Source: Hericium rajendrae
Taxonomy: Eukaryota; Basidiomycota; Agaricomycetes; Russulales; Hericiaceae
NCBI GenBank assembly: GCA_033439255.1
Contig: CM065880.1
Span: forward strand, 2,914,001-2,978,000
Reading direction: 5' to 3'
Length of the DNA stretch: 64,000 bases
Shown: positions 1,490 through 42,524 of the stretch, in pieces
Layout: each line of letters starts with the position of its first letter
Numbering within the stretch: position 1 is the first letter of the stretch
Made by a program: the position numbers and the translations under genes
The notes under the pieces: generated by a model
Told to the model about the DNA's origin: nothing
The model's database searches: none
What the model saw: only the letters and a program-made list of their open reading frames with translations

Positions 1490-1569
1490 GACTCATCGAC
1501 GTCGTTTGGAAGAAATCAAGTTGAGCGAATCCGGCGGGCCGAGCGGATACTGAGCGGACCGGCCTTGAT

Positions 1570-2015
1570 CTTACAGCGTCTGCTGTCGGTTGCAGCTCCG
1601 AGTTTTTCAGCACCTTGTTCCCTTCCTGCAAAATGTGACATCGATATTAGCTTCGATGCCCCATCCATTCGTTAACTTCCCGTTGCTATGGTGATCTTGC
1701 GCTTCGCAACTTGCAATCGAAGTAAGTAAGTATTCCATGATATTTTCTAGACCCCCACTCGAGTTTTCAGCACGATCGACGGTCACGCACGAAGGTTGAA
1801 ATCGCCAGCTTTCGTGATACTGAATACAGTGTATGATTGTAGAAAGGAAAGAGATCGCGGTCAATGCTCCAGACCAGTGTCCGACCACGCTTCGATGCTT
1901 TGTCCCCGAATCGGGAAGCCTATCTGAGAGCGTGCGTACCCACTTTGTACCCTTTCAAGTAAGTTCAAAGCTCGGGCATGGAGGCAACAGTGATCCAATG
2001 CTCTTCATCTTCGTA
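1570..2015 (+). other. Possible C-like exons upstream of A1 (unrecognised)
   Basis: This segment lies just upstream of A1 on the same strand and matches the longer open frame at 21274-21729 in the other arm. A stretch reading RCFVPESGSLSESV followed by a GTAAGT donor is kept in both arms. A weaker counterpart (LVLDKGRALSMKAHY) lies at the same position upstream of A4, and a similar one upstream of A3. This hints at a small spliced gene preceding each A gene. No function can be given, and it may instead be a conserved 5' flank carried along by duplication. Confidence 0.25.
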
Positions 2016-2101
2016 TAGCGACTTTGTGGCCTTTTTGAAAAGGATGTCTCTGAAAGGCAAGTCCCTTCTACTACTTACTGCACAGTGATGTTCGCGACCC
2101 G

Positions 2102-2107
2102 TATAAA
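2102..2107 (+). promoter_or_regulatory. TATA box of A1
   Basis: TATAAA lies about 150 bp upstream of the A1 ATG and is mirrored by the same motif at 21185-21190 before A2. It is followed by an untranslated leader with an intron at 2162-2215 (donor after AGCAAG, acceptor TTTCTAG). A5 has the same leader layout. Confidence 0.5.
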
Positions 2108-2252
2108 GCGTCAGCTCGCGCTTTGATCGAGACCACGCGCTTTAAGCTCCTGGAGAGCAAGGTAGGTTCGCTTTGATCGGTCTCACGCGTCCCTTAACTG
2201 ATCTCTTATTTCTAGGATTCACATCGTTCCCGCACCTACATTCATTTCCAGC

Positions 2253-2970
2253 ATGCCTCATCAACCCCCTGCCCCGCCTAGCCCCGGGCTACCCCGGACG
2301 CTGTACTCCGGCATGTCCTCCCTTCAGATTCACCAGCCTGGCGCTGGCCATAACATGCGAGCGCCTTCATTATTATCACCGGCGTCGGGGACGCATCCTC
2401 CGAAAGCGATGTTCAAATCGTCCAAAGCCGAGCATGCGCATCGACCGAGCAGGAGAGACCATCGATCTTCCACCGTTCTCGGGAAGGACCATCACCAGCT
2501 AGCCGCCACCGCGGGACGCAAACGCATCATGGGCGACGATGCGGAGTTTCTGGCCTCGCAATATTTCTGGAGGCCATTTCCTCGCGAGATGCGTGCCGAA
2601 AGTCAACGGGAGACGGTCCATTTCTTGGGGGCCTGTAAGTCGTCATTCACACCGTCGATCTTGATATGGCCTGACATTTCGTTCAGTGGTCAACGCATTT
2701 GAAAAGCAGAAGAGGAATGAGGAAACCGTGTTAGACGGGCCAAATCGACAACTTGCTGCGCTTCAGGCAAAAGACGCAGACACTGCGCGAGCCATTCAGC
2801 GTCTCAAGGAAGATTCATTGACAGTACGCAATGAGCAAGAGGACCTTATCCTGGACTTACTTCAATTGTCACCAAACGAAGAATTCCGGCAGATTTTTCA
2901 GCGCCATCTTGATTCTCACTATGCAACCCGGAGGAGCATGGATGAGATGTGGAGGCAAGCAAGTCAGTGA
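2253..2970 (+). CDS. A1: proline-rich protein with helical/coiled-coil tail, A family
   Basis: The product is 221 residues from two exons, 2253-2634 and 2687-2970, joined in phase 1. The N-terminus is proline-rich and carries the family motif LYSGMSSLQI. Residues about 85-130 contain a basic patch (GRKRI), a predicted helix, a turn with WRPFP, and a second predicted helix in which the intron falls. The second exon is charged, heptad-like helix ending in LLQLSPNEEFRQ, a motif echoed in every paralogue. The start is the first ATG after an untranslated leader intron and is shared with A2. The gene converges on B1, with stop codons 111 bp apart. I do not recognise a named domain. The layout resembles a helix-loop-helix protein without a proper basic region; that is inference. 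Confidence 0.75.
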
Positions 2971-3172
2971 TTCCAGAATAGAGAAAGATTAAGATTTGCT
3001 TCTATGTATGCCTTGCGCTAACAATTAAATAAGTATTCATCACATGTCCGTATGGAGTTCAGATACTTTCATGCAAATCCTCTATCGTTTAAGATAGCTT
3101 CGTAACATTGCCACTGATTCACGCAGCTGGGCTATCTCCAGCTTAAACGCTGCGTTCTCAGCAGCCAGAATG

Positions 3173-3313
3173 TGTTAGATTCGGTAATTACGGCAGCCAT
3201 CGGGCTTTGCCGAAGTCCTTAAACCTTATCTACGAGTACTTACCGGTGTCATCAACGTCCCAATTTAGTCGTGTCGTTTTATTCCGTTGTCGCTGCGCTT
3301 GCCGTTTTCAACA
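3173..3313 (+). repeat. 5' LTR (141 bp)
   Basis: It starts TGTTAGATTCGG and ends TTTTCAACA, and is identical to the 3' LTR when read base by base. The upstream target-site copy is GAATG. Confidence 0.92.
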
Positions 3314-3541
3314 GGTTATGGGCCCTGCCCGTTCCTAACTCTCGTCATTCTTGCTCGTATTCTGCGGTCTACATCAGGCTTGTTTTGACACCTGCTCCAT
3401 TCCTTGTGCTTCATCCTCGAACCAATCGCTTGCAACGACCGGTAATCACGCATCAACCGTGTTCGGCCTGATCACTCGTCATTCAGCAGTCCTTCTCTCT
3501 ATCCCCTATCCTTTCTAGTCATTCTTTTCGACATCACCATC

Positions 3542-4348
3542 ATGCAGTCCACCGAACGTGTTGACAAGCTGAAGGAGGGCAACTATGTGCAGTGGAGGAC
3601 GGTCATGGAGGCACTTCTCATTGCAGCAGATCTGTGGGAGGTTGTTGGGCCAGAGGTGTCAGGGCTGGTACCCAGAGGTGTGAAGGCAGTTCAGGCGAGG
3701 GAGAAGAAGAGGCAGCAGGCACGCTCGAAGATCACGCTGAGTATTGAGTCCTCTCAGATGCCTTTCATTGTGGGTTTGGAGGATCCAAGGCTTATGTGGA
3801 AGACTTTGGAGGATATTCATCGCTCTGGGTCTGTCAATCACATCCTCTCCCTTCGACGTCGCTTCTTCAGCATGACCAAGCTCGAGTCTGAGTCCACCAT
3901 GGATTGGACTAGTCGTGTCCGTTCCACAGCCCTTGAGCTATCCCATTCCCCTGTTCCTATCCAGGACATCGACATCATCCTCGTCATCACCGATGGTCTC
4001 CCTGAGGAGTATCAGTCGATCGTCACTGCCCTCGATGGAATCCCTTTTTCCGATCTCACTCTCAGCAGTGTCATGTCACGTATCTCTGGCCTGGAGTCTC
4101 AGCTCAGCCGTTCCCAGGACAGGCGCTCAGTATCCGACCAAGCCCTGATTGCCAGGCAGACCCGGTTCACAGGGTCATCCAGCAAGGACGTTACCTGCTA
4201 TACATGTGGTGGGAAAGGTCATATGGCAAGGGTCTGTCCATCCAGTCAGTCTCATGTCAGGTTTGCAGAGGCAGATTTTGTGGAGAGCAATGGTGAGGAG
4301 TCTGCTCAATCTGCACAAGTTGATGAACCTTTCCTTCGCCTCTTTTAA
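3542..4348 (+). CDS. gag: Copia-type gag (UBN2-like) with CCHC zinc knuckle
   Basis: This is a single frame of 268 residues inside the LTR element. The N-terminal two thirds have the layout of Copia gag: KLKEGNYVQWRTVMEALL near the start, the region around LMWKTLEDIH, and the later LRRRFFSMTKL and DGLPEEYQSIV segments. A zinc knuckle C-x2-C-x4-H-x4-C (CYTCGGKGHMARVCP) lies near residue 220-235. The frame ends in an acidic tail before the 3' LTR. Gag proteins of this family assemble the particle and bind element RNA. No pol follows, so this product alone could only serve packaging. Confidence 0.85.
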   Translation: MQSTERVDKLKEGNYVQWRTVMEALLIAADLWEVVGPEVSGLVPRGVKAVQAREKKRQQARSKITLSIESSQMPFIVGLEDPRLMWKTLEDIHRSGSVNHILSLRRRFFSMTKLESESTMDWTSRVRSTALELSHSPVPIQDIDIILVITDGLPEEYQSIVTALDGIPFSDLTLSSVMSRISGLESQLSRSQDRRSVSDQALIARQTRFTGSSSKDVTCYTCGGKGHMARVCPSSQSHVRFAEADFVESNGEESAQSAQVDEPFLRLF

Positions 4349-4387
4349 TTGTTACTTTCTGCCGATGGTTGCCTCATTATGTAGGAG

Positions 4388-4528
4388 TGTTAGATTCGGT
4401 AATTACGGCAGCCATCGGGCTTTGCCGAAGTCCTTAAACCTTATCTACGAGTACTTACCGGTGTCATCAACGTCCCAATTTAGTCGTGTCGTTTTATTCC
4501 GTTGTCGCTGCGCTTGCCGTTTTCAACA
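4388..4528 (+). repeat. 3' LTR (141 bp)
   Basis: It is identical to the LTR at 3173-3313 and is followed directly by the second target-site copy GAATG at 4529-4533. Confidence 0.92.
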
Positions 4529-5764
4529 GAATGTTTACCTGGGTCCTGAGCATGTCGCCGATTTCATCACGCTCTCTGATTGCCGCCTGGAACTGAGCTT
4601 CCTTCGCTTGCCAGACAGCATTGCGTACCGAGTCCCCGACCCATTCTATGGCTGCACAGAGATTGTCAAGCTGCGATCATCAAGTTTCGAATCATACCCA
4701 ACGTACCTCTTTCCAAACACTGCGCTTCTGTATGCGGCAGCCCTTTCTTGTCATTGACGTCAGGTAAGGGTACGTCGGGCCAGAAAAGTTGGTGAAGCTG
4801 CCGTATCAGGCCTCTGATCTGACCCCGGTGTCTCGTACCCCTTTGCCTGTCCATCTCTCGCCTCATTCCCTTCGCCGATGGCTCGACGTTCCTCATGCTG
4901 CCGCCATCGTCCATTCCGTCATGATCCATGCCATCGTCATCGCTCTCAATGTCGTCTGCGTCTCTGTAAGCGCCAGACGTGAATACGCTGCCCGACTTGG
5001 TCTTCAGACTACTCATGATGCGGGGGATGGGGTTGAGCCTGTACTTTTGCATGTACCCAGAAGATGGGCCCTTCTTCGAGTCCTTCGCAGACTTTCGAGG
5101 CTTGAGAGTCGCCTTCGCACGCAGGTTGCTCGTAGACGGGCCGGCGGGTTGCAGAGAACTCGGGCCGGATGCTCCCGCCTGCGACACTTGAGGGTATGGG
5201 AGGGAAGGTACGGCGGGAGGTGGTGGTGGAGCGTGGGGGCGAGGGGTCGCATGCCGTGATGGCAGTGGCGGTCGTTGGGGAGATGGGCCTGGCAGCTGAA
5301 GATTCCACGACGAAGAAGAACTCGAAACAGCTGGCCAGCGAGGTGCATGTGCGAGAGATTGAGGAGTGGGCGCGCTGATTTCAGGCATCCTGCCGGAAGA
5401 AGTCCCTTGTGCTGATGGGTACCGGCCATTGTCTACAAACATGTTGGAGGGATTGTTGGAACTTGTCGCAGGCATGAAGAATGGTGCATAGGTTTGAGGT
5501 GGAGGTAGACGCCAATTTGTACCGCCCACTGTGTCGAATGCATGTGGGTCCTCCACTGGATTATACGGCGATGACGCTCGAGGCGTCCTTGAGGTCGACC
5601 TGTTCGGGATGTCCGTCGAGTGGGATGAACTATGTCAATCAGACACAAATGAGCAGGCACCTCAACAGCAGTATTATATGGACTTACGAGGCATGGGCAT
5701 TGGTACTTTGATTATGTGAAGTATGCCTGTGTGTGGGCTGTTGTGGAGTACGTCGCGATGTCAT

Positions 5765-6886
5765 GCTGAGCTTTTGGCCGAGGAGGCGTTTCTGATCGTC
5801 TAGATCGTTGCAGTCGTAAGATAGAAAATTAGGGTATCAGTAGTGTAACCGTAGAATAGAGGCGTCCGGCGCCGGAGATACGTGGTAGAATAGACCAGAG
5901 ACGAGATGCTGGTGGAATGGAGCCTCAGGCTTGGATCTGCTCGTTTAATACCCAGCATTCCGTCGCTAGCGTCCTGCGCATACAATACCAAGTCGCGTTG
6001 AGTGCCATGCAATGAACAGACGGAGACGGAGAGGGACTCACAATTGTGGTCATTGTATTCTGCAATGACAAGACGACGGGTACGTTGCTCCTGATGGATC
6101 GTTATACAAAATAAAGAGCATACAACAACATTAGCATCCCATTTGAGGTATCATCCATCGAAGATTACGCTTATTGTGATACAGTTGCGAACGAAAACCT
6201 GTGTCTTCACATAGCCTGACGTGAGATCTGCGTCCGCTGTGTGTCCGACTACTTATTGTGAGGTGTGAAGAAGTCGGATTGTCGTACCTTGGTGGAATGA
6301 CGCCAGAGATCGTGGTATCTTCGGACCTCGAAGACTTGGCATTACTCGTCGTCACGTTGAAGCAGTGGTAAACGCAATGCAAGGGCGCTTAAAAGAGCGG
6401 GAATCCACAACAATAAGTCGGGGATTGAGAATGCTTGTCATTGGTCGGTCGACATCGATAACGACAATCCTAGGGAAATCGGTCAGATTTGGGAAACGAC
6501 AGGAGGAGGTACATGCGAGGGCTGCCCATGAAGCAATATTGTAATTAGATATTGACTGTATGTCTGGCGTTCAATATTCTCCAATATTCTGTCGTGCAGC
6601 AATACACTGCCGCGTTATACAAATGGAATCCAGCGTTCAAACGTGTCCTGCCTTGTCTTGGAACGGACCTGCCGCTGTAGCTCGCCTAGCTGAGAGTCTT
6701 GATACAAACGTTTGGACTTGCGCCCAATCTCGGGACCGTCTGACATGCATATGATATGCTGCAGGACGAAATGGACGTTGCGCGGGCAATGGTGAGGTAT
6801 GATCTGAATACGCCCTCCTCGACCTCACCGTCCTTGTGGTCTGACAGGGCATAAGATATCAGCTATTCCAGCGCTCATGGGAAGAA
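5765..6886 (-). promoter_or_regulatory. 5' flank and promoter of B1, TATTAAA at 5943-5949
   Basis: This 1.1 kb stretch is mirrored at 17750-18841 upstream of B2. It contains TATTAAA about 180 bp before the ATG; the same heptamer precedes B2, B3, B4 and B5. Short frames here are interrupted and differ between the arms, so I see no confident gene, although a decayed upstream gene cannot be excluded. Confidence 0.45.
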
Positions 6887-8287: not shown

Positions 8288-10626
8288 TCACGACTGCGCG
8301 TTGATCGCGGCGTTCTGCGCCGAGAAAGTGGTCGAGACGACGGGACAGCCCTTACCAGGGCCATTCAGGTTCTGCAGCGTAATGGACGCGGCGGTGAGGC
8401 GCGCAAGCTGCGACTGCTTTGAGTTGTCGAGCGGGTACGAGACCTGGACGCTCGGGTTGTTGATCGCGTGCCCAGCGTTCGCGTTAGCGGTCATTTGCTA
8501 GAACACGATGTGAGCTGCCATGTCATGCGTTAGCGGTGCGTGGATGCGCACCTGGATGTACTCGTCCTCAGAGGGCGGACAGGCGCAAGGGATCTTGATG
8601 GGCTTGCCGTCCGCGCCATTGACGGCGCCGTCACAGTCGCCGGTGCCGGTGGGGTTCACGCCGGACTGGAAGCCCAGAGGCGGCGCGACGGCGGAGACCT
8701 GCGCCTCGCTCAAGGCGCCGGTGCTCGGCGTCGCGTTGTTCGTGCCAGACGGCGCGGCGGGGGCAGGTGCGGCAGCAGCAGAAGTCGATGCGGGAGGCAC
8801 GGCAGCGGAGGTCGATGCGGGGGGCGCGGGCGCGGCACTGGGCGGGAGCGGCTGGCCGTTCGAGATGGCCTGGTTCTGCGCGGAGAAGGTGGTTGAAGCG
8901 ACGGGGCAGCCTTTTCCGGGGCCATTTAGATTCTGGAGCGTGATCGAGGCGGCGGTGAGGCGGGTGAGCTGCGATTGCTTAGAATCGTCGAGAGGGTAGT
9001 CGACTTTGACTGTAGGATTGTTGATCGCGTGGCCGGCGTTGGCATTCGCAGTGAGTTGCTGCAGCAAGCGCATCAGACGTTTCTCTTTTCGTCGAGAAAA
9101 AGCATGGTAGCTTACCTGGATATACTCGTCTTGCGAAGGGGGGCACGCGCAGGGGATCTTGATGGGCTTGCCATCAGAACCCTTGACAGCACCGTCGCAG
9201 TCACCGGTACCTGCATGACCATCAGTACAACGTTCGAAGGCCGCTTTATACACGAGAGACTCACCAGTGGGGTTCACACCTGACTGGAAGCCAAGAGGAG
9301 GAGCGACAGCGGAAACCTGAGCCTCAGACAGCGCACCAGAGCCATCAGAAGCATCGGCATTGTTCGTGCCAGCCGGGGCGGATGGGGCTGGCGCGGGAGC
9401 AGTGGAAGACGGGGCAGGTGCGGGAGCAGCAGAAGACGGAGCAGGTACAGGAGCAGCAGAAGACGGGGCGGGCGCGGGTGCGGCGCTGGGCGGGAGCGGC
9501 TGGCCATTCTGGATCGCCTGGTTCTGGGCAGAGAACGTCGTTGATACAATGGGGCAGCCCTTGCCAGGCCCATTCAGATTCTGAAGCGTGATCGACGCAG
9601 CCGTAAGACGCGTCAACTGCGATTGCTTGGAGTTGTCGAGCGGGTAGTCAACTTTGACCGTGGGGTTGTTGATCGCCTGGCCCGCGTTCGCGTTCGCCGT
9701 CAGTTGCTAGAGTAGGGTGTCAGCGCACGCAGAGGGACGGACGCGGTGGCGCTCACCTGTATGTACTCGTCCTGAGATGGAGGACACGCGCAGGGAATCT
9801 TGATGGGTTTGCCATCAGATCCGTTGACAGCGCCATCACAGTCGCCAGTACCTGCGCAGGTGCACGTTAGTGAACGGAGCGTAGAATGTGAATGGTGGCT
9901 TACCTGTGGGGTTCACGCCAGACTGGAAACCGAGTGGGGGCGCAACGGCGGAAACCTGGGCCTCAGTAAGGGCGCCCGAAGCGGGCGCGGAAGGCGCGGG
10001 TGCCGGAGCAGGAGCTGCGCTGGAAGGCGCCGGGGCCGCAGCGGGCGCGCTGGAAGCCGGCACCGAGACCGAAGGAGGGAGAGCCTGGCCGGCCTGGATG
10101 GCCTTCTGCTGGGCAGAGAAGGTCGTAGACACGACGGGGCAGCCCTTGCCAGGGCCGTTCAAATTCTGCAGGGTCACAGCGGCGGTGTTAAGGCGCGCGA
10201 GTTGGGACGCCTGGGAGTTATCCGTGGGGAAAGACACCTCGACGGTCGGGTTGTTCACAGCGTGTCCGGCGGCCAGATTTGCGTTCAGATCCTACACGAT
10301 AAAAATTCGACTTCATAGAGCTGGTAGAATAACATGAGGAAGGACGTACGTCAATGAAGGTCTGGCGGTCTGGAGGGCATGCGCAAGGAATCTTGATGGG
10401 CTTGCCATCGGCGCCGTTTACCGCGCCATCGCAATCACCGGTACCTGCAGACGGTGTAAGAATTGCCTAGATGAACGTACGCACATCACTCACCGGTCGG
10501 GTTGATGCCTGATTGGAAGCCGAACTCAGGGATGAGGCTGGGGTCGACGTCGCGCCTGACGGGGCGTGCAGAGGTGACTCCGGCGAGGAACAACGCAATG
10601 GAAATCGTAGCGGTCGAAAGCTTCAT
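8288..10626 (-). CDS. Secreted four-module Cys-repeat protein
   Basis: Eight exons (10626-10494, 10444-10350, 10291-9904, 9851-9757, 9706-9265, 9210-9116, 9058-8552, 8497-8288) give about 654 residues. Residues 1-20 form a signal peptide (MKLSTATISIALFLAGVTSA), so the protein is probably exported. Four tandem modules of about 150 residues follow. Each has FQSG(V/I)NPTGTGDCDGAV, GKPIKIPCACPP, a segment like NANAGHAINNP, LQNLNGPGKGCP and STTFSAQ, giving four or so cysteines per module. Ala/Pro-rich linkers separate modules. Introns recur at the same two points in each module (after NPTG and after EYIQ), except that module 4 has lost the first, so the gene grew by duplication of exon pairs. I know similar modules from wood-decay fungal secretomes but no established function. 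Confidence 0.85.
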
Positions 10627-10813
10627 TTTTTTTTAACAGGGTCAAGGTCCAGCGATGAGAAGGAAAGTTTCCAAAGGATTGTAAGAAAGTGAGTGTACGC
10701 CAGGCAGACTTGAACTTGAGCAGGAAAAAAGTCAGCCGAGCTAGCCGGACCTGACGAGGAGAACAGGGAAGAAAGAGCGAGGGGATGGCCAACAATGGGC
10801 CTGTCATCGTTGC

Positions 10814-10819
10814 CTTTAT
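10814..10819 (-). promoter_or_regulatory. TATA box of the secreted repeat gene
   Basis: TATAAA on the minus strand lies about 190 bp upstream of the ATG at 10626, inside a GGCCGTATAAAGGC context. It is the only good TATA match nearby. Confidence 0.5.
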
Positions 10820-12189: not shown

Positions 12190-12832
12190 ACGCAGATCGC
12201 AGTATCTGACGTCGGATTGGCAGAACTGAACGTCCACTCTTGATCGTGGTGTCGAAGAATCGGCGCGCCGCCTTTGTGGGAAGCGGAAAAGACGAGGATG
12301 AGAACCAAACATACTATCGCTGTCAAACGTGTCTTTGTGGGCCTTGAAGAACGACCTCTTGCTTGGATATATAAGATGAACAACAATGCGTGGAGGCAAA
12401 AAAAAAAAGAAGGCTCACTGCAGACATTCAGCTTGTATAATTCGACCCTGATCGGTCGCGTCGACGCAGTCCTCTCCAGTAGATTCGAACAAATAGCGTC
12501 CGTGAGGGAGGCACACTCCGGAACAGTGGAGATAAAGAAGTGCGAGATGTCCATGTTGCCTGCCTTGTGGTATATCTCGTCTAGGACATCCTATGTTGTT
12601 CAAACCGAACGTGGCATAGTCACATGCGTCGGACAGACGCTATAGGATGGCACGCGCGACGTCGATGCGCCTGACGTATTGCAACAGTTGGTCAATATGG
12701 TATTCAGAACTAAGATGGGAAAACGAACCATTGCTCATCTATACCATAGCATATTAAAGCGATCCGCAACAGAGGGAGTGCCGCTTTCATACGGTGGCTT
12801 GCATGTCGACGATGGCATCGCGAAGAGGTCCT
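12190..12832 (-). pseudogene. 2OG-Fe(II) oxygenase relic, paralogue of 43.2-44.6 kb
   Basis: Minus-strand translation aligns piecewise with the intact oxygenase: the start region (FAMPSSTCKPPYESGT against RDAIIDQPPYASGT), the segment ending in DETYRKAGKMD, then RTASTRPIRVELYKLNVC, and finally HKGGAPILRHHDQEWTF. These pieces lie in different frames. The sequence corresponding to the catalytic HxD is degraded, and similarity fades after about 12190. It is the third copy of this family in the window and clearly the oldest. Its 5' end abuts the broken deaminase gene through a GC-rich junction at about 12833-12876. Confidence 0.7.
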
Positions 12833-12883
12833 CAAGCATGCGGCCGCTCGCCGGTCCGCTCGGCCCGCAGGACTTCATTCCAT
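12826..12883. repeat. GC-rich junction motif shared with the inverted-repeat boundary
   Basis: On the minus strand this reads AAGTCCTGCGGGCCGAGCGG, then ACCGG...CGGCCGC and CTTGAGGACCTCTTC. Nearly the same string stands at about 21733-21785 at the outer edge of the right inverted-repeat arm, and a looser form at 1535-1565 at the left arm edge. It lies exactly where the deaminase and oxygenase fragments meet. It could be the remnant of a short repeat element used in rearrangement. Confidence 0.45.
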
Positions 12884-18841: not shown

Positions 18842-20183
18842 ATGACATCGCGACGTACTCCACAACAGCCCACACACAGGCATACTTCACATAATCAAAG
18901 TACCAATGCCCATGCCTCGTAAGTCCATATAATACTGCTGTTGAGGTGCCTGCTCATTTGTGTCTGATTGACATAGTTCATCCCACTCGACGGACATCCC
19001 GAACAGGTCGACCTCAAGGACGCCTCGAGCGTCATCGCCATATAATCCAGTGGAGGACCCACATGCATTCGACACAGTGGGCAGTACAAATTGGCGTCTA
19101 CCGGCACCTCAACCCTATGCACCATTCTTCATGCCTGCGACAAGTTCCAACAATCCCTCCAACATGTTTGTAGACAATGGCCGGTACCCGTCAGCACAAG
19201 GGACTTCTTCCGGAAGGATGCCCGAAATCAGCGCGCCCGCTCCTCAATCTCTCGCACATGCACCTCGCTGGCCAGCTGTTTCGAGTTCGTCTTCGTCGTG
19301 GAATCTTCCGCTGCCAGGCCCATCTCCCCAACAACTGCCACTGCCATCGCGGCATGCGACACTTCGCCCCCACGCTCCACCACCTCCACCGTGCCCCCTC
19401 TCCCCTACCCTCAACACTCGCATGCGGGATTATCAGGGCCGAGCTCTCTGCAGTCTGCTGGTCCATCGACGAGTAACCTGCGTGCAAAAGAGACTTTCAA
19501 GCCTCGAAAGTCTACAAAGGACTCGAAGAAGGGCCCAGCTGCTGGGTACATGCATAAGTTCAAGCTCAACCCCATCCCCCGCATCATGGGTAGTTTGAAG
19601 ACCAAGTCGGGCAGCGTAGTAACATCTTCGCAGCCTCCGGTTGTCGTTCAAGATCCTCGGCACGGTGGGTATAGAGACACGGATAACATCCAGAACGATA
19701 ATGACGACGACAACGGCGGCGGCCTGTATGATGTCGACAATACGGTGAACATCGGACTGTCAGCAAAGGAAATGAAGCAAGCCAAGGATACCGAGAGGTC
19801 GTCGAGGCACCGAGCTCAGATCAAAGGCCTTAAAGACCGGCTTGACCAACTTCTGTGGCCTGAGAATGCCCTATCTAAGAACGAGCCGTCGCATACAAAT
19901 GCGCAATGTTTGGAAAGAGGTGCGTTGGGTATAATTTCAAACTTGTTGATCACAGTTTGACAATTTCTATGCAGCCATAGAATGGGTCGGAGACTCCGTA
20001 CGCAATGCTGTCTGGCAAGAGAAGGAAGCCGTACTGGAAGGAGAAATCAGGTACTTTCAGGAATTAGCCAGAAACGCTGAAAGACGGGCAGAAATTTCAG
20101 AAGCTCAGTCAGCGGCACGACAGTATCAGATCGAGCAGTTGCAGCAGATGGTGACTTTGCTGCAACAGCATCACGCGCGGTAG
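18842..20183 (+). pseudogene. B2: bHLH-like coiled-coil protein gene with a 1-nt frame offset
   Basis: Exons are 18842-18918, 18977-19919 and 19975-20183, with splice sites and first- and last-exon lengths (77 and 209 nt) identical to B1. Spliced helix 2 reads HTNAQCLERAIEWVGDSV after a basic segment RSSRHRAQIKGLKDRL and LLWP; the last exon is coiled coil. Within the middle exon, in the proline run near 19385-19400 (CCACCTCCACCGTG against B1's CCACCTCCCGCCGTA), one base is missing relative to B1. The N-terminal and bHLH halves are therefore in different frames. Either B2 is inactivated, an extra intron is removed there, translation starts downstream of the shift, or the assembly has an error in the C-rich run. 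Converges on A2 with stops 136 bp apart. Confidence 0.7.
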
Positions 20184-22757: not shown

Positions 22758-24108
22758 ATGAGATCGTCAGCCAGCCCGGTTAGTCCGCACTCCGCGATCC
22801 ACACTCCTCCCGCTTCGTATCCTGCAGCGCGCTCACCCTCATCGTGGTCAACTCCACCGCCGACGAGTCCCCCTCGACACCAAACAAGCTCCAGGCACGC
22901 GACCCCATCCGAGGCTCATCCCTCTATTACAGGCTCTCCTCTGCTGCCTGCCCAACACGAATGGCGCGAACCATCGTCGCGAGCTGGGTCAGCTGCGCCG
23001 GCCTCTCCTTTACAGCATGCAAGCTCCAGGCACGCGACCCCACACGGAACTCGTCCCTCTACTGCGAGCCCTCCCCGGCTGCCTACTCAACATGAATGGC
23101 GCGAACCATCGTCGCGAATCGACTCGACTCCGCCCAGCTCCCCTTCACAGCATGCAGGCTCCAGGCACGCGACCCCGTCCAGAACGCAACCCCCCGTTCC
23201 CATCCCGTCCTATCCGCCGCTTCGGGATGAACAACGTCATCCATCGTTGCACCCCGGGTCTTGGTCCACTCCGCCAACGGGTCCTCCACAGCAGGCCGAC
23301 TCCAGGCATGCGACGTACGGGCCACCCAGCGCCTACCCATCCCTTCCGCCCCGTCTGCCCAGCCGTGAGGAATGGCGCCAGATATCCTCGCAGCCCGGGT
23401 ATCCGTCCCCATCGCGTGAGGCGACGCGCTTGGATACGCCGGCATACGAGCCGTATGGCCAGGAGCAGCAGAAGGCGCGGAAGCCCGTGAGGACGCCGAA
23501 GCTGGAGGGGATTCCCAAGGACCAGCTGCAACGATTTCGAGTTGTGGACCTCGGGGCGGCGCCGAGCTCGTCTGGGATGAAGAGAACAAGATCGCCAGAC
23601 GATGAGTTCCAACCTGGTGCGAAGTTCATGGCTACCACTTCCAGCGATTCAGCTGGTGCGAAGAAGGGTAAGGATAAAGTCAAGCTGTCGCTTGCGGAGG
23701 AGGTGAAGCAGGCGGATAAGAGAAGAAGCAAGGAGGCGAATCGGCAGCAGTCTTATCGGAACGAGATTGATAACGCCTTCGACGAGCTCTTGATGGTGAT
23801 GTATGGCGATGAGGAGAAGGCCAAGTTTGCGCGGGCGGCGCACGGAAAGAAGGGGTGTATAAGGAAGGGTGAGTTCTGCATTGCGCACGAGTTTTATGAA
23901 TTGACTGATGAGCTTTGCAGCCATAGAGATGATTAGGAACGGCGTACAGGAGAGGTGCACATTTCAAGAAAAAGTTCAAGACCTTAAAGGAAGGGATGAG
24001 GAAGTGACCCGCATGAGCAATGAGCTGGTAGAGTACCGTGAACAAGTCGCCCAGTTACGCGAGAAACTCGCTCAGCTGCAAAAGCATCAACTGGCGGATA
24101 AGGATTAA
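22758..24108 (+). CDS. B4: bHLH-leucine-zipper-like protein with repeat N-terminus
   Basis: Exons 22758-23868 and 23921-24108 join in phase 1 and give 432 residues. Residues about 35-210 hold four degenerate repeats of roughly 39 residues around SRHATP and QHEWREPSS. The B3-B5 motif LEGIPKDQLQRFRVVDL follows, then a lysine-rich stretch and a bHLH-like unit: EANRQQSYRNEIDNAFDELL (basic region with E-x-x-R, helix 1), a loop, and helix 2 KKGCIRKAIEMIRNGV created by splicing. The second exon continues as heptad coiled coil (VAQLREKLAQLQKH). The first small exon seen in B1-B3 and B6 is absent. No A gene follows, so it is an orphan. Likely a nuclear DNA-binding dimer; the target is unknown. Confidence 0.75.
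22880..23400 (+). repeat. Coding minisatellite in B4, about 117 bp units
   Basis: Four diverged units each contain CCAGGCACGCGACCCC-like sequence (AGCTCCAGGCACGCGACC) and an ATGGCGCGAACCATCGTCGC-like block. They keep the reading frame and code for the SRHATP/EWREPSS repeats. Confidence 0.75.
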
Positions 24109-25169
24109 AACATAAGGTCGTACTCTTCCTTTCTCAGATACTTAGTGTACCGGCAGTAGCGGTGGTCGATGATTCCGGGTTTGGGGGGAGGGGTTGTAGG
24201 ATTCATCGGAGACGGGTCGGCAACGAGATAACCTTTAATGAGCATAACAAAATATAATCATGATTCGTATCAGTAGAATGAAATACTTTGTTTTCAGCAA
24301 GCTGGACGAGAAGTGGCCACTGTCAAAGCAGATAGCCTCGCTTCCCGTCTAGGTCCTGTTGACATCAGTTAAAAGTTGTATCGCTACGTGCGATGCTAGC
24401 GTTCAGAGACAAAGCTCTTGAGAAATCGACGTCTCGTCGAGTACGTTTGTCCAAAGGCTTTGACTCCCTTGCATCGACAGAATGCCCGCCTTCCGTCTCG
24501 TACTTACTGTACAAGGGCAGGTTACCACTCTATTCGACTCCAACCTTCCAGATTGATGTGCAAGGAAAGATGAGAATTTTGGGCACATATTGGCGAAACG
24601 AAGCCAAACGCTTCACACGTTGAACTAAATAACAAGAAGTATTGTTATTCTTCCCGACGTCGAGTGCTGGTCGAACAATGGTCGAACGAGCATTACGGCG
24701 GCCCGGCTCCGGACCGAGGACGGTATTCCCGAGCCAGCCCGAGTCTCGATGTTGGATCACCGCGACGTTCAAGCGTTCCCAGCTCGACATGCACGACGTT
24801 GAGAGCGATCATTATTTCCTTCATTCTTTTACCAATGCGACTCCATTCAAGGGTCCCTTAAAGTCCCGCAGTCGGCGCATCAAGGCTCAAACGAAAGGCA
24901 ACGCGGACTTCGGAGTCAAATACACAAAATCCAACCTCAATTCTTCATCTTAGAGGTGTTCAGACTTACGCGCATATTTCTCGAGCTCACGGTTCTCGAT
25001 AGGGCTTTCAAACAACTTCTCGGAACATCAGAGTCGTGCCTACTTCTATAGGTCTGTATTCGAGGCCCTAATACACGTAACATGGTCCTTGCCCGTCATC
25101 CATAGTTGATTCTGCAGCTGAGCACGTCCGATGTCCACGTTTCGATAATCCAGGCATTTGTTCTGCTTC
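24109..25169. other. Intergenic, no gene seen
   Basis: No credible coding sequence follows B4, and no A partner is present at the position where one would be expected. Frames up to about 100 codons lack motifs. Confidence 0.35.
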
Positions 25170-25400
25170 GACCCCATCAGTCCCTCGTTTCAGATGTCTC
25201 ACTGCTATGTCAATAGGCTGCAGCTTAAGCTACGCCCAACCCATCTCGACGGTCCAGTCCACCGTGTTGCTTCTGACGTTGATCAAAGCGACAGTTTCAT
25301 CGCAATCGAATTGCAGACATACCCTGCCTCGTTCCAGTCCTGCAGTTATCGGGTTTCATCCGACTTCCGTGTAATGAGTTTGCTACACGGAGGGAAATTC
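25170..25400 (+). repeat. B 5'-flank repeat, copy 1
   Basis: It matches 29660-29885 over about 220 bp with many changes: ATGTCT(C/T)A(C/T)TGCTATG, CTACGCCCAACCCA, GACGGTCCA.TCCACC, AAATTGCAGACATAC-like and TCCTGCAGTT strings occur in the same order. Here it precedes B5. It shows that long upstream flanks were duplicated with the B genes. Confidence 0.6.
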
Positions 25401-25724: not shown

Positions 25725-26261
25725 ATGCAGGCACCCTCAGCCGAGGCCCGTGGCCGGAACCAACATAAACCCCACAGAAGCTCGACACTGGATGGGATTC
25801 CCGAAAACCAGATGCAGAAATTTAAGCTCAGTACTCTTGCTCAAATGGATAGGATCCCCAGAGAGCATGCGCGAGAAGTTCAACCCAAGTCTAACTTCAC
25901 TGCTCGTAAGGAGGCAAATGGTGCGAGCGAGTCCAGAAGCAAAGTAAAAATCCTGTCGCCCGAGAAAAAGGAGTCGGAACGGGACCGCCAGCGGTATCAT
26001 CGCGACAACTTCGGTGCTGCATTTTCTGAACTTCGTGCGGAGACGTACTCGCACGAAGAGGAGTACCGGCAATCTGAACATACAAAGCCGGAATGTGCAC
26101 AGGATGGTGAGTTTGTCATCCCGCAGAGCTTTCCGCGTGGCTCAAATCCTTACCATTCAGCTGCCCGACAACTCAGGGCTTTGAAGAGGGAGAATGCTGC
26201 GCTCCAGGAGGCGGTGAGGCGCCTCGGACAGAGGAAAGTCTGGCGCCCTTGGGAAATCTAG
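25725..26261 (+). CDS. B5: short bHLH-like protein, B family
   Basis: Exons 25725-26106 and 26161-26261 join in phase 1 for 160 residues. It has the family motif LDGIPENQMQKFKL, a basic/helix-1 stretch ESERDRQRYHRDNFGAAFSEL, and a spliced helix 2 with AARQLRALKRENAALQE, after which the zipper ends early at KVWRPWEI. It lacks the proline-rich N-terminus and the long coiled coil of B3, to which it is closest, and has no A partner. I chose the first in-frame ATG (25725). A TATTAAA motif at 25602-25608 lies 117 bp upstream, so a 5' exon could also have been lost. It may be a decaying copy or a functional short form. Confidence 0.6.
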   Translation: MQAPSAEARGRNQHKPHRSSTLDGIPENQMQKFKLSTLAQMDRIPREHAREVQPKSNFTARKEANGASESRSKVKILSPEKKESERDRQRYHRDNFGAAFSELRAETYSHEEEYRQSEHTKPECAQDGEFVIPQSFPRGSNPYHSAARQLRALKRENAALQEAVRRLGQRKVWRPWEI

Positions 26262-26871: not shown

Positions 26872-28023
26872 ATGTCATACCCTCAAGCTTCATCTGCATA
26901 TAATAATGGCCATTATTCGTGAGTTGCCTCGATTCACTTGATAGCCATTAATATTGACGAAAAATATTCGATTAGCTATATACCATCTAATGCACCTACG
27001 ACGAGCAGATATATTACCCAACAAGGAATCGAGTTGATACCAAAGACTCAACGAAGACCTTCGCCATATGACCCGCTCAACGATCCGGACCCCTTCGCCA
27101 GTATGAGCCTCTACGTCGTACCTCCAACGCAGCAAACCGCGAATTATTCGACGGCGGGACTTCCTGCCCATAACTCTCCCTATAGAGATGCACACGCGAG
27201 TCAGCACAATGTGTCTTCCGCGCCATATTATTCTCTTCCTCCCAGCACCAGCTACCTGACGCAGCAAGAACCAGGAACCTCCACCTCTGCGTCGCGCTAT
27301 TCGCCGGCGCGCGAGGCCGTCGGCTTGACGTTCGAGGACTACGGTGCTGATACTCGGAGGCCGCAACCTGCTGCCCAGTACGGGGTTCCTTCAACGAGTA
27401 CGCATGACAAGGAACATCGCCGACATCAAAAGTCATCCAGGAGTTCAAGACTGGACGGGATTCCGAAAGATCAGATGCAAAGATTTCGACTCCAAGACCT
27501 TGGGTCGGGCTCGTCTGCGAGGTCAAAATCACGGCTGTCAGGTAGCGCTACCCAGCCTGATGCGAATGGCGGGAAGAAGGGCAAGGGCAAGGCTGAGCCT
27601 TCGCTCGAGGAGAAGCAAATAGCAGCGAAGAGGAAGAGGGAGGCAGATCGACAACAGGCATATCGGGACGGGGTGGGAAGTGCCTTTGATGAACTTCATG
27701 CGGAGACGTATCCAGACGAAGAGAAGTCCACGTTGGCGCGATCTGACCATGTAAAGCAGCAATGCATGCTGGATGGTGAGTCACTCATCACGCACAATAT
27801 GGCTTTATGCATGCTTATCTCTTGCTCCCTAGCCGCTCGCCAACTTAGGGCCTTAAGGACGGAGAATTCTGTGCTCCAAGAAAAGATGACCGGTATTTCC
27901 GACAGACACAGGGAGAAGATAGATTCTTTGATCGCTGAAAATCAGGCACATCGGCAGACTATTTCCCAGCTGCGCCAATTGGTGGTTCATTTGAGGGAGC
28001 AGATAACCAACAACCACTCGTAA
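26872..28023 (+). CDS. B3: bHLH-leucine-zipper-like protein, B family
   Basis: Three exons (26872-26918, 26976-27775, 27833-28023) give 345 residues. The 47 nt first exon ends in phase 2, as in B1, B2 and B6. The middle exon is Ser/Tyr/Gln/Pro-rich, then has LDGIPKDQMQRFRLQDL and a basic/helix-1 unit KRKREADRQQAYRDGVGSAF with E-x-x-R. The phase-1 intron interrupts helix 2, which splices to KQQCMLDAARQLRAL. Leucine-zipper heptads follow to the end (ISQLRQLVVHLREQI). It is the most complete zipper in the family. Converges on A3 with stop codons only 43 bp apart. Probable dimerising DNA-binding protein; target and partner unknown. Confidence 0.78.
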
Positions 28024-28066
28024 CTTAACGTATTCATAATGCTAAATCGAGTTTTACATATTACTA

Positions 28067-28814
28067 TTAGTGATGTCTTGGGGGATAAGCGAGATCTGTT
28101 TTCCTCAACATATTATCGACTTTCTTGCAATGATGATAATGAGCATCCAGCCCCTTCTGGCATTCCCTGCGAAAATTGTCATTCGGTGCCATCTCAAGCA
28201 GTTGTAGCAAGACGTCTTCTCTCTCCCGGCGTCCATCCCCAAACGTCTGAATTATACTGTCTAGCTTTCGCTCGTTGTCCAATTCCTGTTCATAGGCAGC
28301 GAGAAGCTCTTGCTTTTTGCCTTTTTCTTCTCTAAGGCAATCCTTGACTAGATCATAGATGAATGAGAATGCATTCCGTGCCATGATGTAAAGTCGATGA
28401 CTCACAAGTGCGGAGCATCTCCTCGGTCTCCCTACGAGAAGAAGATCGAGCGTCGGGAGGGAAAACACTCCAATAAGGGCTCATTTGCCTAGCTATTGCC
28501 TCGTCCTTAACGATGCGCCTGGTCACTATCTCGTCCTTGATGATGTGCCTGTGCCCCGCAGAGGTGGCTGCCGCCTGGCGGGGATCCTTCCATGGGGTAG
28601 AGGAGCCTAGGTGCTCGCTCTTCCTGGGGTGCTGCGCGTGCTCGGCCTTCGGCGCTTTCAGAAGGGCTTTGTGAGGTTGAGATGCAGTCGGGTGTAATGA
28701 TTGTTGTAGACCGCCGTATCCAGTATCGGGTTGGCCAATTTGAAGAGACGACATGCCCGAGTAGAGGGTCGGAGGCAACCCGGGGCTTCCGGCAGGAGGT
28801 GGACGATACGACAT
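28067..28814 (-). CDS. A3: proline-rich protein with helical/coiled-coil tail, A family
   Basis: Exons 28814-28406 and 28347-28067 join in phase 1 for 229 residues. It begins MSYRPPPAGSPGLPP and carries LYSGMSSLQIGQP. Residues 90-140 have a basic patch, a short KDE repeat (IVKDE twice, probably a small internal duplication), the turn YWSVFPPDARSS and a helix crossing the intron. The second exon is coiled coil with LLEMAPNDNFRRECQKGL. The first exon aligns well with A4, the tail much less. The untranslated leader also contains an intron (donor after CTCTCCAGGAGG on the minus strand, near 28915). Partner of B3 by position. No named domain. Confidence 0.78.
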
Positions 28815-29049
28815 GATGGAAGTAGATCGGCGGCAAGGTAAGCTAATTTTTGACAAGAATATATCAGTAATGCGACTACTCATGAGGATCGAACAGAACC
28901 AGCTTACCTTCCTCTCCAGGAGGGACGTGAATGGCCTCCACCAAAACGGATATCAAAGCTTTAAGTAGCGTCGGTAACAAACATCGCCGAACAATAAATG
29001 GAACAAGGTCTACAAAGACAGAGTGGCTGTCATTGATGAGGAGTGTTGC

Positions 29050-29540: not shown

Positions 29541-29659
29541 GACAGTGGCATGGTCCAACACCCTCGCCTGCATCCTACATCGCTAATCTGCAGCCGGGTA
29601 CATATGAGGTCCACACTTTAATGGTCCAATCAATTTTTTTTTGCTCTCACCTCTTCAAC

Positions 29660-29900
29660 AGCTCGTTCTAGATGTCTTATTGCTATGCCACAGCACCGTC
29701 CGAGCTGCGCCCAACCCAACTGACGGTCCAATCCACCAAGGCGAATGTACATTGCCTTCTGGCGTGAATTAAAGCAACAATCTTTTCACCATCAAATTGC
29801 AGACATACAGTACCCTATCTCGTCCGGTTCCTGCAGTTGTCTGGTTTCGCTCGACGTCCTGTGGTGGGTTTGTGGCACGAAAGCAGAGGCGTCTACAATA
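29660..29900 (+). repeat. B 5'-flank repeat, copy 2 (flank without its B gene)
   Basis: It matches 25170-25400 in order and orientation and ends with GGTTTGTGGCACGAAAGC, echoing the B4 flank. It points toward A4's 3' end but no B coding sequence follows before A4. The simplest reading is that A4's former B partner was deleted, leaving only its upstream flank. Confidence 0.55.
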
Positions 29901-29982
29901 ATGCGCAGGGTGCTCTCTTTCTTTTTTAATGTAATACTTGCAATGATAAGTAATCAAAATGTACAATGTTAACTTGTTAACC

Positions 29983-31600: not shown

Positions 31601-31662
31601 GATCGTACAAGACCACGCTTTTATGAAAGTGCAAAGAGTCCAAAAATGTTCAAGCATAGAAA

Positions 31663-39024: not shown

Positions 39025-39885
39025 TTGGGGTTGTCACCGTAGTCGTCGCTGTCGCTATCGCTGAAGTCGTATGTCGTTGAAAGTCTAAGCCGAGGGCGGG
39101 TCCCACCGGTCTGCGCCACTCCGGTTGCTCATCCAAACAGTGCCAAATAAGTCCGGACTGTGCTAGATTTGGCCAGGTCCGCCCAGTCAACGTTCTTGTT
39201 CGGTTCTCGACGAACTTTTTGTTGTCTCGACGACGAGGTGGATGCTGCGTTGAACGACGAATATCGGCTGTTGGAATGATGGGTCCAAGAAAGAGAAGTA
39301 ACTCCTGACAAGTCCTTATTTTACGAGTTGCAGAAACCAGAGATCTTATCTACTGGTGTTGACGCGTTCGTAATTCTCCGACGACTCGGACGAGCTCCGA
39401 AGTGCCCGCGCTCTCCGAGTGCTCTCCGGCGCTCCCAAGTTGGTCGCCTTCAAATTCAAGGCTCAAACTGTCCTGATCATCGATGCGCATCCTGATGTGA
39501 GTACTATGGCAGCTTCAGTGAAGCTATATTCTCGACGGCAAAGCATCTCCATAGACATTTTCACCTATGTTACAGGTAAGCGGCTGCTATCATATAGGAA
39601 TGCCAGCATTATACCGTCTTGAGCCACCATTATACTTTACCATTTACGAAATGACCAGGATGACTTGAAGCTGAACTGAGGTCGTACTCCTTTTTCTCGA
39701 AACGTTGTCCACAGCTAAGTTGTCTGCCTCAATCGAGGGCCATCCTTGTATCGGTAAGTCTTCGTCCTCGGCCAGGCTAGGATAGCGACCTTGTACTTTG
39801 ATGTGGGCACACCCTCCTGCACTTTGTTCCCTAACTGCTCAAGCGATGGTCCAGATCTGGCCCTCGCATTGAGCACTTTCTTCCG
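39025..39885. other. Intergenic between mitofusin and A5
   Basis: The left part is the mitofusin promoter, the right part leads to A5. Nothing else recognisable. Confidence 0.4.
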
Positions 39886-39891
39886 TATAAA
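39886..39891 (+). promoter_or_regulatory. TATA box of A5
   Basis: TATAAA about 145 bp before the ATG at 40032 is followed by an untranslated leader with an intron at 39944-39996, whose donor context AGCAAG-GTAAG matches that of A1. Confidence 0.5.
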
Positions 39892-40031
39892 TACTATCTC
39901 TAGGTGTCAGTCAAGATAGTCACCTATTTTCCCGCAGAGCAAGGTAAGCTCCTCCTGCTTGAAGCCAAAGCATCCAAACGTAAACTTGTTTCTCAGGACT
40001 GTCTATTCTGCCGCCTGTCTTGCCGATAACC

Positions 40032-40406
40032 ATGAACCGCCAGGCATCACGTCATTCCGACATGAGGAAGGCATTGCTGAGGACACGAGTGGAGCAGCGT
40101 CATGCTAGAACGGTGATGGATGATCCCATTCAGCCCATGCTTGACAATGTCAGGGCAGGTATGCAAGCTTACTTGCAAGAGGATGACCGCCGGGACGTCG
40201 AAGCTCTCGAGAAAGAGGATGAACACAGGGCGTTGTTGCGCTCATTACTTCAAATGGCGGGGATAACCCCCGAGATGCGCAAAGATGCTGAAGCTGGAAT
40301 CCTGCATAGCGTGGCGGAGACCAAGAGACTGGAGAACGTGATACAAGAAAGGCGACAGAGAATGGATCCCTCGACGGGAAGCATGCACGGTGATAAAAGA
40401 TCGTAG
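40032..40406 (+). CDS. A5: short A-family-like coiled-coil protein
   Basis: A single frame of 124 residues. It lacks the proline-rich N-terminus and LYSGMSSLQI, but the helical tail (EHRALLRSLLQMAGITPEMRKDAEAGILHSVAETKRLENVI) aligns in pattern with A1-A4 tails (LLQLSPNEEFRQIFQRHL and so on). The leader intron and TATA arrangement also match the A family. It converges on B6 with stop codons only 32 bp apart, the same geometry as the other pairs. No intron interrupts the coding part. I regard it as a divergent or shortened A member; the assignment rests on geometry plus weak similarity. Confidence 0.6.
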   Translation: MNRQASRHSDMRKALLRTRVEQRHARTVMDDPIQPMLDNVRAGMQAYLQEDDRRDVEALEKEDEHRALLRSLLQMAGITPEMRKDAEAGILHSVAETKRLENVIQERRQRMDPSTGSMHGDKRS

Positions 40407-40438
40407 CATTACTAGCTATCCGAGCGTGTACAGTATCG

Positions 40439-41348
40439 TTACTGCCTTATACCCATCATCATTTCCCTGGCTACGATGATCCCTTGGCAGTGCTTCACCA
40501 TTCTCTGCAACACATCGATCTTCTGCTGATATTGCAATTCTCGGTTTGCGGTCTGGTATCGCTCTTGCTCTAACGTCTGCTGCATCTCGGCTATAGTAGC
40601 TTTCATACTCGCGATTTCATTAGCATGCGCTTGTTCCATCTTCAACGTGCCGTCCAGTCGAACAATCACTGAACAACAGCGACATGAGCCAAGAGAACGA
40701 CAGTATGAGACGACGACACGTACTTTCTTCCAAGCATTGCAGTTTCGTGTGGTCGGAGCGCACAACGCTCCTGTCTTCTTCAGGCCAGATCCTTTCACGA
40801 ATACCATCCAAGAGCTGAGCCTCTGTATTGCGGTGCTTCTTGGCCCGTCGCTGATTCTTCTCCCGGTCTGGCCCAGATGGATACGGCGCCGCGGAATTTC
40901 CACTATTACCAGCGAGCGAGCGGGAGCGATGGTGCTCGGGCGGGCTCGGGGAGCTGTCAGACTCCGGCGAGCTTGAAACCATCTTCGACTTGGCCGACTT
41001 GCGGCCTGTCTGTTTGGCTGCCAGGTCCGATTGCTGCGTATAGGCTCTAGGCTGCTCGTAGCCAATACCATGATGCTGGCCTGGATGCGAGGCTGGAGCT
41101 TGTGGGTACGAGCCTGCATAAGTATAGCCCGAAGCGGGCTGCGCGTTGAATGTGAGGTCGGGATAGGCATATTGACCGTCGTTCAACGACGGTGCGCCAT
41201 GACTGTGATTCCTGTTGAGACAGACATGAACGGTGGTTGAAACGAAGAGCCGATTCTACACTTACGAATGATGACTTCCTGAGGACTGCTGATGATGAGA
41301 GGAAGACTGAGTCCAGTACGCGGAGTTGGCGTTGTGCGTAGACGGCAT
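40439..41348 (-). CDS. B6: bHLH-like coiled-coil protein, B family
   Basis: Exons 41348-41266, 41211-40724 and 40668-40439 give 266 residues, with the family's phase-2 first intron and phase-1 second intron. The N-terminus is His/Ser/Tyr/Pro-rich. A Ser/Pro stretch precedes a basic region and helix 1 (KNQRRAKKHRNTEAQLLDGI), then RIWPEED. Helix 2 splices to HTKLQCLEEMIVRLDGTL. The last exon is a long coiled coil (MKATIAEMQQTLEQERYQT). The GIPxDQMQRFRL motif of B3-B5 is missing. A TATATAA at 41506-41512 lies about 160 bp upstream. Convergent partner of A5. Confidence 0.72.
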
Positions 41349-42020
41349 ATTAGAATCGCGGATGTGAGACGAGAGACAAGTTGTCGATGTCAAGTACAAA
41401 GAAATAGACAATTATGAGCGATGTGAGACGTGCCAGCGTCAGAGAGATCTGCAGTGAGTATACGAGCGCGGGGTAATGGAGAAGTCCCCGCACTTGAACC
41501 AGGCATTATATACACCTGGCGTTCAGGCATGGAAACGACCTCCACCAGGGTCCGGGAAAGACAATTAGTGAAGGAAAGGACTCACAATAGCGATTATTGT
41601 GTCTACGAAGACGATATCCCCGTTCCCTCTGATGTGTCGTCGCGAAGGCATATACCAGACAATTATCTCCGAACCGACATATCAAACGTGATATAGCGCC
41701 TGCACGGAGAAACTGACCAGTCGGTACAGCCACCATCCATAGCACTGCTGATGGAATGCCCGTTCCGCCAGATCACAATAAGGAACTGTGGAGATTGTCC
41801 TCAGTACTGTCGCTGAAGGTCGGGTTGCACGGCAAGCACCGGGGCGCTGGGTCTTCTGAGTGCACGTGTCCGGCGTCAGGAGCACACGGGCGTACATAGA
41901 CAATAAGAAACCATATGGTTGACCTCGGTATCTGCCTCATGTCAGCCCAAAATGATTGTACAAAAAGAACTTCATCAGGGTACGAAGACTGTGCGAACAG
42001 CAGGCTGCGCGACGCGCTCA

Positions 42021-42524
42021 TCAGCCGTCTAACGCTGCCTTCGCCCACCGATTATGCGCTCTGATCTGTTCTTTCAGCCCCTCGATTTCGTAGTCCTTGG
42101 AACGGAGCAGCTGCTTCCAGCTTTCGATCGCTCCCGCGAGGCGTTCTTCGCGGACTTGACTCGCATCCGCAGGCAATAGCTCCTCGAGGCTCTTAAGCAC
42201 TATGTCGGAAACATGAATGAATATCGTGCAGCTGCTTCGACTGGACACGAGGTCCACTGTACAGGACGTACCTGCCTCAAGATATTCTAACCTCGAGGTT
42301 TCGGGATCGGAACTTCGAGGCGCATTGGCTTCCTCTGGGAACAGTTCCTTCAAAAGGCGATCGACAAGTTCAACGTCGGGGTGTTGAAATTGCGGACGCT
42401 TGACCTTTTCCTAGGTAAGTTTGAGCTCGCTCGGACACTAGTGATTCTAACTTACCGGTACGATCGAAGACGTAGGCTCGCCACGCTGCTCAATGGTAGA
42501 CGTAGATTGCTGGTTGCTTTGCAT
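42021..42524 (-). CDS. HLH7: small helix-loop-helix-like protein without basic region
   Basis: Exons 42524-42456, 42410-42272 and 42199-42021 give 128 residues. Helix 1 is DVELVDRLLKELFPEEA, the loop is APRSSDPETS, and helix 2 (RLEYLEAVLKSLEELL) is interrupted by a phase-1 intron at the same place as in all B genes. A charged coiled coil ends the protein (LRSKDYEIEGLKEQIRAH). It has neither the proline-rich N-terminus nor a convincing basic region. By the logic of Id-type HLH proteins it could dimerise without binding DNA; that is inference. It sits about 0.7 kb upstream of B6 on the same strand. Confidence 0.65.

Follow-up and report, generated by a model that had tools for sequence, protein, structure and literature searches.

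In a 64-kb stretch of the genome of the mushroom Hericium rajendrae (GenBank assembly GCA_033439255.1, contig CM065880.1, positions 2,914,001 to 2,978,000; hereafter, the window), we find an array of duplicated two-gene units, in each of which a B gene, encoding a core like that of basic helix-loop-helix (bHLH) proteins and then a coiled coil, stands tail to tail with a second gene, A. What might such an arrangement be for? The explanation that we favor, and to which we would give a probability of about 40%, is that A and B proteins act as regulator pairs, the modeled helical hairpin of A binding the coil of B in a pair-specific way and controlling it. The A and B genes were modeled as spliced open reading frames (ORFs), and all positions are window coordinates.

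An array of tail-to-tail units

The spliced gene models place five A genes, six B genes and one B-like relative (B7) within 41 kb, bearing out a first-pass annotation that had counted at least six B genes, a bHLH-like relative and five A genes. The four tail-to-tail pairs that it had named also stand, with stop codons separated by 111 nt in A1/B1, 136 in A2/B2, 43 in A3/B3 and 32 in A5/B6. Because A1/B1 and A2/B2 are inverted duplicates of one unit, however, the independent pair types number three, not four.

On the forward strand, A1 (2253-2634 and 2687-2970; two coding exons, 221 amino acids) faces B1 on the reverse strand (3082-5764; exons 5764-5688 and 5629-4707, and a last exon from 4651), which is split in that last exon by a long terminal repeat (LTR) element; the remainder of the B1 coil lies below 3171, and its stop codon is at 3084-3082. 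The inverted copy pairs B2 (forward; 18842-18918, 18977-19919 and 19975-20183), with a model that spans two frames, with A2 (reverse; 21039-20658 and 20603-20320; two exons, 221 amino acids). B3 (forward; 26872-26918, 26976-27775 and 27833-28023), intact, with three exons, 345 amino acids and a long coil, faces A3 (reverse; 28814-28406 and 28347-28067; two exons, 229 amino acids), and the single-exon A5 (forward; 40032-40406; 124 amino acids, with an A-type leader) faces the intact B6 (reverse; 41348-41266, 41211-40724 and 40668-40439; three exons, 266 amino acids). Three members have no adjoining partner: A4 (reverse; 30726-30351 and 30287-29983; two exons, 226 amino acids), the short B4 (forward; 25725-26106 and 26161-26261; 160 amino acids with a short coil) and B5 (forward; 22758-23868 and 23921-24108; two exons, 432 amino acids). 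B7 (reverse; 42524-42456, 42410-42272 and 42199-42021; 128 amino acids) is helix-loop-helix-like and lacks a basic region.

The introns of the modeled genes are small (45-72 nt), and their positions are conserved: a phase-1 intron interrupts the presumptive helix 2 of the core at the same point in B1-B7, and a single phase-1 coding intron is common to A1-A4 and absent from A5. The reading frame is fully open in B3, B5, B6 and A1-A5, and such introns as these genes have are GT-AG. The last introns of B3 (27776-27832), B4 (26107-26160) and B7 (42200-42271), of 57, 54 and 72 nt, are divisible by three and free of in-frame stops, and an unspliced reading of them is possible; for those of B1, B2, B5 and B6 (55, 55, 52 and 55 nt), it is not open.

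Who belongs to which family? BLASTP among the ORFs of the window groups A1-A4, B1-B2 and B3-B4-B5, mostly at strong E-values. For B6 the BLASTP evidence is weak (E 5e-4 to 4e-3), and yet it scores 31.7 bits against a hidden Markov model (HMM) of B1-B5, which none of 2000 B6 shuffles reaches; its membership is safe on these scores, and chance as the source of the B-protein similarity is ruled out by the shuffles. B7, matched by 2 of 2000 shuffles and carrying the phase-1 intron at the same place, is a probable member. A kinship between A and B themselves is unsupported (hhalign score 14.8 over 26 columns). Searches for relatives elsewhere found none for A4 and B2 in viral contigs and none for B3 in prokaryotic contigs, as one would expect of a fungus.

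The A5 protein alone is not significant as an A relative (83 of 2000 shuffles reach its score), and we count it among the A genes on account of its upstream region. In the whole 64 kb there are exactly five copies of the motif AGAGSAAGGTARG, one for every A gene, A5 included, and each lies 96-101 nt before the start codon (in A1 at 2154-2166); 0.01 copies would be expected, and the pattern was written after these upstream regions had been inspected, so that the chance figure favors our reading. When one mismatch is allowed, a single further site appears at 62917-62929 (6 against 0.21 expected). We read the motif as a putative leader-intron donor with the end of the 5' leader exon before it. 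The B genes have a leader element too, CTCTGRCGCYGG, though a weaker one: at up to one mismatch, it has seven sites in the window, with 1.9 expected, and four of these stand 91-114 nt before the four paired B genes; the other three are one site 377 nt upstream of B5 and two elsewhere, and none of the unpaired B4, B5 and B7 has it at the usual distance. Words common to A and B upstream regions are no more frequent than in random windows. By identity, as distinct from a tree, the groups on the two sides agree: A1/A2 go with B1/B2, A3/A4 with B3/B4/B5 and A5 with B6.

The B core and the predicted A hairpin

The B proteins are, in our view, a divergent family of bHLH-like type, with putative DNA binding. 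Aligned to a profile of six bHLH proteins, the B1-B6 core scores 23.9 in hhalign, in register over 55-60 columns, whereas the maximum is 16.2 over 300 shuffles of columns and 15.8 over 300 of heptad blocks, and the reversed alignment scores 9.1. The resemblance to bHLH proteins that the first-pass annotation had proposed thus outlasts HMM-HMM comparison (0 of 600 shuffles reach the score), although hhalign's own probability for the match is a modest 23-44%. The full B profile, run against the Protein Data Bank (PDB), has seven Max bHLH-zipper chains among its 29 hits (E 0.10-0.17); for scale, a single-sequence search with the bHLH protein Pho4 picks up other bHLH chains at E 0.0024-1.6.

The expected residues are partly replaced. 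The E-box is read by a glutamate of bHLH proteins, and at the alignment position that we take to be its own, all six B proteins have something else (G, S, Q, Q, Q and A in B1-B6). Of the usual arginine pair, the first is H or Y, and the second is R in all six.

No single B protein reaches the cut-off of a Pfam family. Seven spliced B pieces gave no HLH entry at E up to 10, in a search in which most matches with E above about 0.1 are lost to HMMER's filters. The best Pfam matches of the B pieces, both of B3, are ANG-1 (4.5e-4) and FAM76 (9.3e-4); both fall below cut-offs, the ANG-1 match lies in the coil, and we treated the two as coil matches. A single-chain structural model of an unspliced B3 piece, 19 residues of which are intron-coded, has helices at 2-29 and 37-47 and a long one at 52-132, with low confidence at residues 11-50; the best match in a fold search of the PDB had an E-value of 7.7.

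The A proteins are harder to place. None has a Pfam family above cut-off, and a PDB search with the A profile gave a best E of 1.2. A1-A4 begin with a proline-rich N-terminus, and A5 is shorter. The C-terminal half of A4, modeled together with its equivalents from A1-A3 and A5, is predicted to form a pair of long helices with a short turn between them, at an SP-DEE motif (predicted local distance difference test, pLDDT, 83.4; predicted template-modeling score, pTM, 0.53), and a fold search with this hairpin returned no significant match (best E 0.53). That A is itself a bHLH protein is ruled out by its hhalign score of 8.0.

Mosaic divergence and how it might have arisen

The closest units are strikingly uneven copies of one another, with 84-100% identity in their promoter-proximal and 5' portions and a synonymously saturated exon 2 in A. 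An arm on the A side (1582-2725, forward), which takes in the A1 promoter, leader, exon 1 and the start of exon 2, is 90% identical to 21706-20565; an arm on the B side (4597-6886, reverse), with the B1 promoter, exons 1-2 and the start of exon 3, averages 85.5% against 20029-17750, with a peak of 100% at exon 1/intron 1 and a low of 65% at 4797-4996, in exon 2. Between A1/B1 and A2/B2, identity is high near the A leader and start codon (1890-2369, 94-100%) and in the 5297-6096 stretch of B (95-100%), and it declines toward the center, to 36-61% in 80-nt windows in exon 2 of A1/A2 and beyond and to the 65% low in exon 2 of B. A3/A4 repeat the pattern: 28721-29020 is 87-89% alike, against some 50% in exon 2.

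Synonymous sites tell the same story. In A1/A2, synonymous substitutions per site (dS) are 0.27 in exon 1, against a saturated proportion of synonymous differences (pS) of 0.77 in exon 2 (p 8e-11); in A3/A4, a dS of 0.78 in exon 1 stands against a pS of 0.81 in exon 2 (p 1e-4); and in B1/B2, the N-terminus has a dS of 0.067, whereas the linker, basic stretch and helix 1 have one of 1.1 (p 5e-13). Because synonymous sites have diverged too, the contrast between 5' and 3' parts is not only one of protein change. The statement in the first-pass annotation that N-termini diverge fast is therefore wrong within the closest duplicates, in which it is the N-terminal halves that are conserved and the 3' halves that are divergent. 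In the alike parts, the ratio of nonsynonymous to synonymous substitutions (dN/dS) is 0.17, 0.30 and 0.34, as expected under protein constraint.

A control is at hand in the same window. An inverted duplicate of a 2OG-Fe(II) oxygenase gene (42804-44877 and 47709-49820), 85% identical overall, has diverged evenly: identity is 83-96% in 100-nt windows from 44700 to 43201, and dS is 0.13-0.34 in five 50-codon windows, with no significant break (p 0.14); the window at the very gene end (43200-43101) gives 72% with many gaps. A third, diverged and partial copy of this gene lies at 12228-12676 (66-68%).

How are we to understand the mosaic? It fits old, linked specificity segments in surroundings that recombine, as judged from one genome, and old paralogues or alleles whose 5' halves were recently converted would fit it too; a single genome cannot separate these two histories. 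That silent sites have diverged far more in the facing 3' halves than in the 5' halves leans, in our judgment, toward dimerizing A and B proteins and a recognition or selfish system. On the explanation that we favor, these facing halves would encode matched pairing surfaces, the coil of B and the hairpin of A, and A and B proteins may dimerize. With the pairing surfaces at adjoining 3' ends, tight linkage would keep matching halves together, selection for partner choice would keep the 3' halves diverse, and recombination would keep the outer parts of the units alike. Pair-specific binding by A would then set whether B can dimerize and act on DNA, with self/non-self recognition, development or self-promotion as candidate outputs. 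A recognition or selfish role for the array is plausible. The bolder proposal, that this is a new fungal recognition locus made of old, linked 3' specificity cassettes of a bHLH-like regulator and its hairpin partner, set in recombining flanks as a mirror image of HD1/HD2, we consider doubtful.

Several of the B genes look damaged. The LTR element in the last exon of B1 (3173-4528) is copia-type, with identical LTRs (a direct repeat at 3172-3314 and 4387-4529, 100%) and a target-site duplication, GAATG; its one recognized frame is gag (Retrotran_gag_2, 8.3e-23, in Pfam), and it is probably non-autonomous and young. It is also the sole element recognized, inside B1, and the idea that A and B are transposon parts is unsupported. 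In B2, an indel of 4 nt relative to B1 near 19385, in a proline-rich stretch, shifts the frame and is possibly an assembly error. By these signs, both genes look broken, and with the short B4, the tally is three of six B genes against none of the four full-length A genes. A direct repeat (67%) joins 25087-25389, upstream of B4, to 29562-29879, downstream of A4, and hints that A4 may once have had a B neighbor.

Several observations weigh against the pairing explanation. Identity drops outward as well, to 80-85% at the far upstream ends of the A1/B1 and A2/B2 units, and B1/B2 are alike again in intron 2 and the start of exon 3 (84-95%), so that the old B segment is not one clean block. Where the B1/B2 coil begins, amino-acid change is in excess but not significantly so (p 0.32), and positive selection in the coil was set aside on that ground. 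Designed or natural coiled coils make up the top PDB hits of the full B profile and many of its others, and a search with the B core alone yields no bHLH chain there. With B1 and B2 apparently broken and B4 short, B is not under strong selection in this genome, and the comparison covers a single genome. Finally, gene conversion of 5' halves between old paralogues would yield the same mosaic and imply no recognition role.

This last point is the core of the alternative that, in our estimate, comes close behind: an ordinary lineage-specific family, in which a regulator and its neighbor were duplicated together, gene conversion kept promoters and 5' halves alike, the small gaps reflect a compact genome and there is neither mutual binding nor recognition. 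Conversion alone can produce the mosaic, the other duplicates in the window suggest a region that duplicates readily, and A4, B4 and B5 do stand unpaired. Such a family would leave it surprising, however, that three pair types keep the facing layout and the small gaps, that the neighboring oxygenase duplicate has no comparable break and that the A and B groups agree, which argues for long co-inheritance. One might imagine instead a poison-antidote or selfish unit, in which a harmful effect of B (or A) on cells or spores is neutralized by the linked partner. This would explain tight linkage, multiple copies and turnover, and B is damaged more often than A, while the lone A4 adjoins a repeat with its other copy upstream of B4, as if a B had been lost; because the numbers are too small for a test, and B4 and B5 stand with no neighboring A, we think it improbable. 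Hardly more probable is a decaying array with no present function, in which relics of an older regulator family are kept only by duplication. The retroelement in B1, the apparent frameshift in B2, the short B4 and the unpaired A4 would all suit such decay; the full open frames of eight genes, the dN/dS of 0.17-0.34 in comparable parts and the leader motif kept in five of five A genes do not.

Apart from the oxygenase and the copia-type gag, the window encodes a Dynamin_N GTPase (which we take for a mitofusin), an FMN-dependent dehydrogenase and a DUF5127 protein; together with the short introns, this gene content fits a basidiomycete. A tRNA scan of the window found none. Four tandem coding units of about 560-650 nt, 63-80% alike and with alanine/proline/serine-rich spacers, occupy 8303-10449; the one ORF of theirs tested has no Pfam match. 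At 58693-58964, a unit of about 136 nt stands twice in tandem (89% alike), with no gene assigned there.

Comparison with known systems

Has anything of the kind been described before? The first-pass annotation knew of no description of such pairs, and among the top-ranked open-access full texts, we too found none of convergent bHLH-like pairs; this is weak evidence, most of the subscription literature lying outside that set. The excerpts drawn on from PMC3998117, PMC5415576, PMC11855202, PMC13108863 and PMC8970355 likewise describe no such pairs. If the facing halves are matched specificity segments, the array would be a recognition-type regulator locus in mushrooms beyond the two known mating loci, and it would offer candidate genes behind somatic incompatibility, a process that the abstract of PMC8229728 calls poorly understood in basidiomycetes. 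Even on a modest reading, there is a hidden bHLH-like family here, missed by the standard Pfam model and clustered in 41 kb.

The fungal toxin-antidote meiotic drivers wtf and Spok are multi-copy loci of fast turnover with broken members, and in this the array is like them. It differs from them in consisting of two tail-to-tail genes with a DNA-binding-like core, and it is not known to kill.

The bHLH-zipper factors (Max, Pho4 and USF) offer a second comparison. In B, the basic stretch and both helices, with the loop between them, fall in register, a predicted long coil follows, and helix 2 of B1/B2, AQCLERAIEWV, resembles what we take to be the corresponding Max segment, AQILDKATEYI. Unlike these factors, B has no Pfam HLH match and no E-box glutamate, only the second arginine of the pair is invariant and each full A/B unit has a convergent A gene; we know of no convergent A-type partner gene in bHLH biology. 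Recognized bHLH genes number 9-12 per listed mushroom species in the sections used of PMC11855202.

A third comparison is with the homeodomain (HD) mating genes HD1/HD2. In the parts drawn on of PMC13108863 and PMC8970355, HD loci are described as sets of linked, unlike regulators in which some members are duplicated, others are missing and alleles are strongly divergent. The A/B array resembles them in pairing two unlike, linked regulator-like genes, in having both extra and missing members and in its strong divergence (here between paralogues). There is no sign, in narrow string searches, that this is itself a homeodomain mating locus: the string W[FY]xNx[RK][RKQ] is absent from window ORFs of at least 25 amino acids, no Pfam homeodomain was found in the A or B pieces and FHEFGH, which we take to be the active-site string of MIP, is absent from the window in a narrow pattern search that did not extend to the beta-flanking gene. 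Unlike HD1/HD2, moreover, the A/B genes are convergent, not divergent, and their diverged part is on the 3' side, where that of the HD genes is on the 5' side. The specificity ends of HD1 and HD2 are their adjoining 5' ends, and the A/B layout is the mirror image of theirs.

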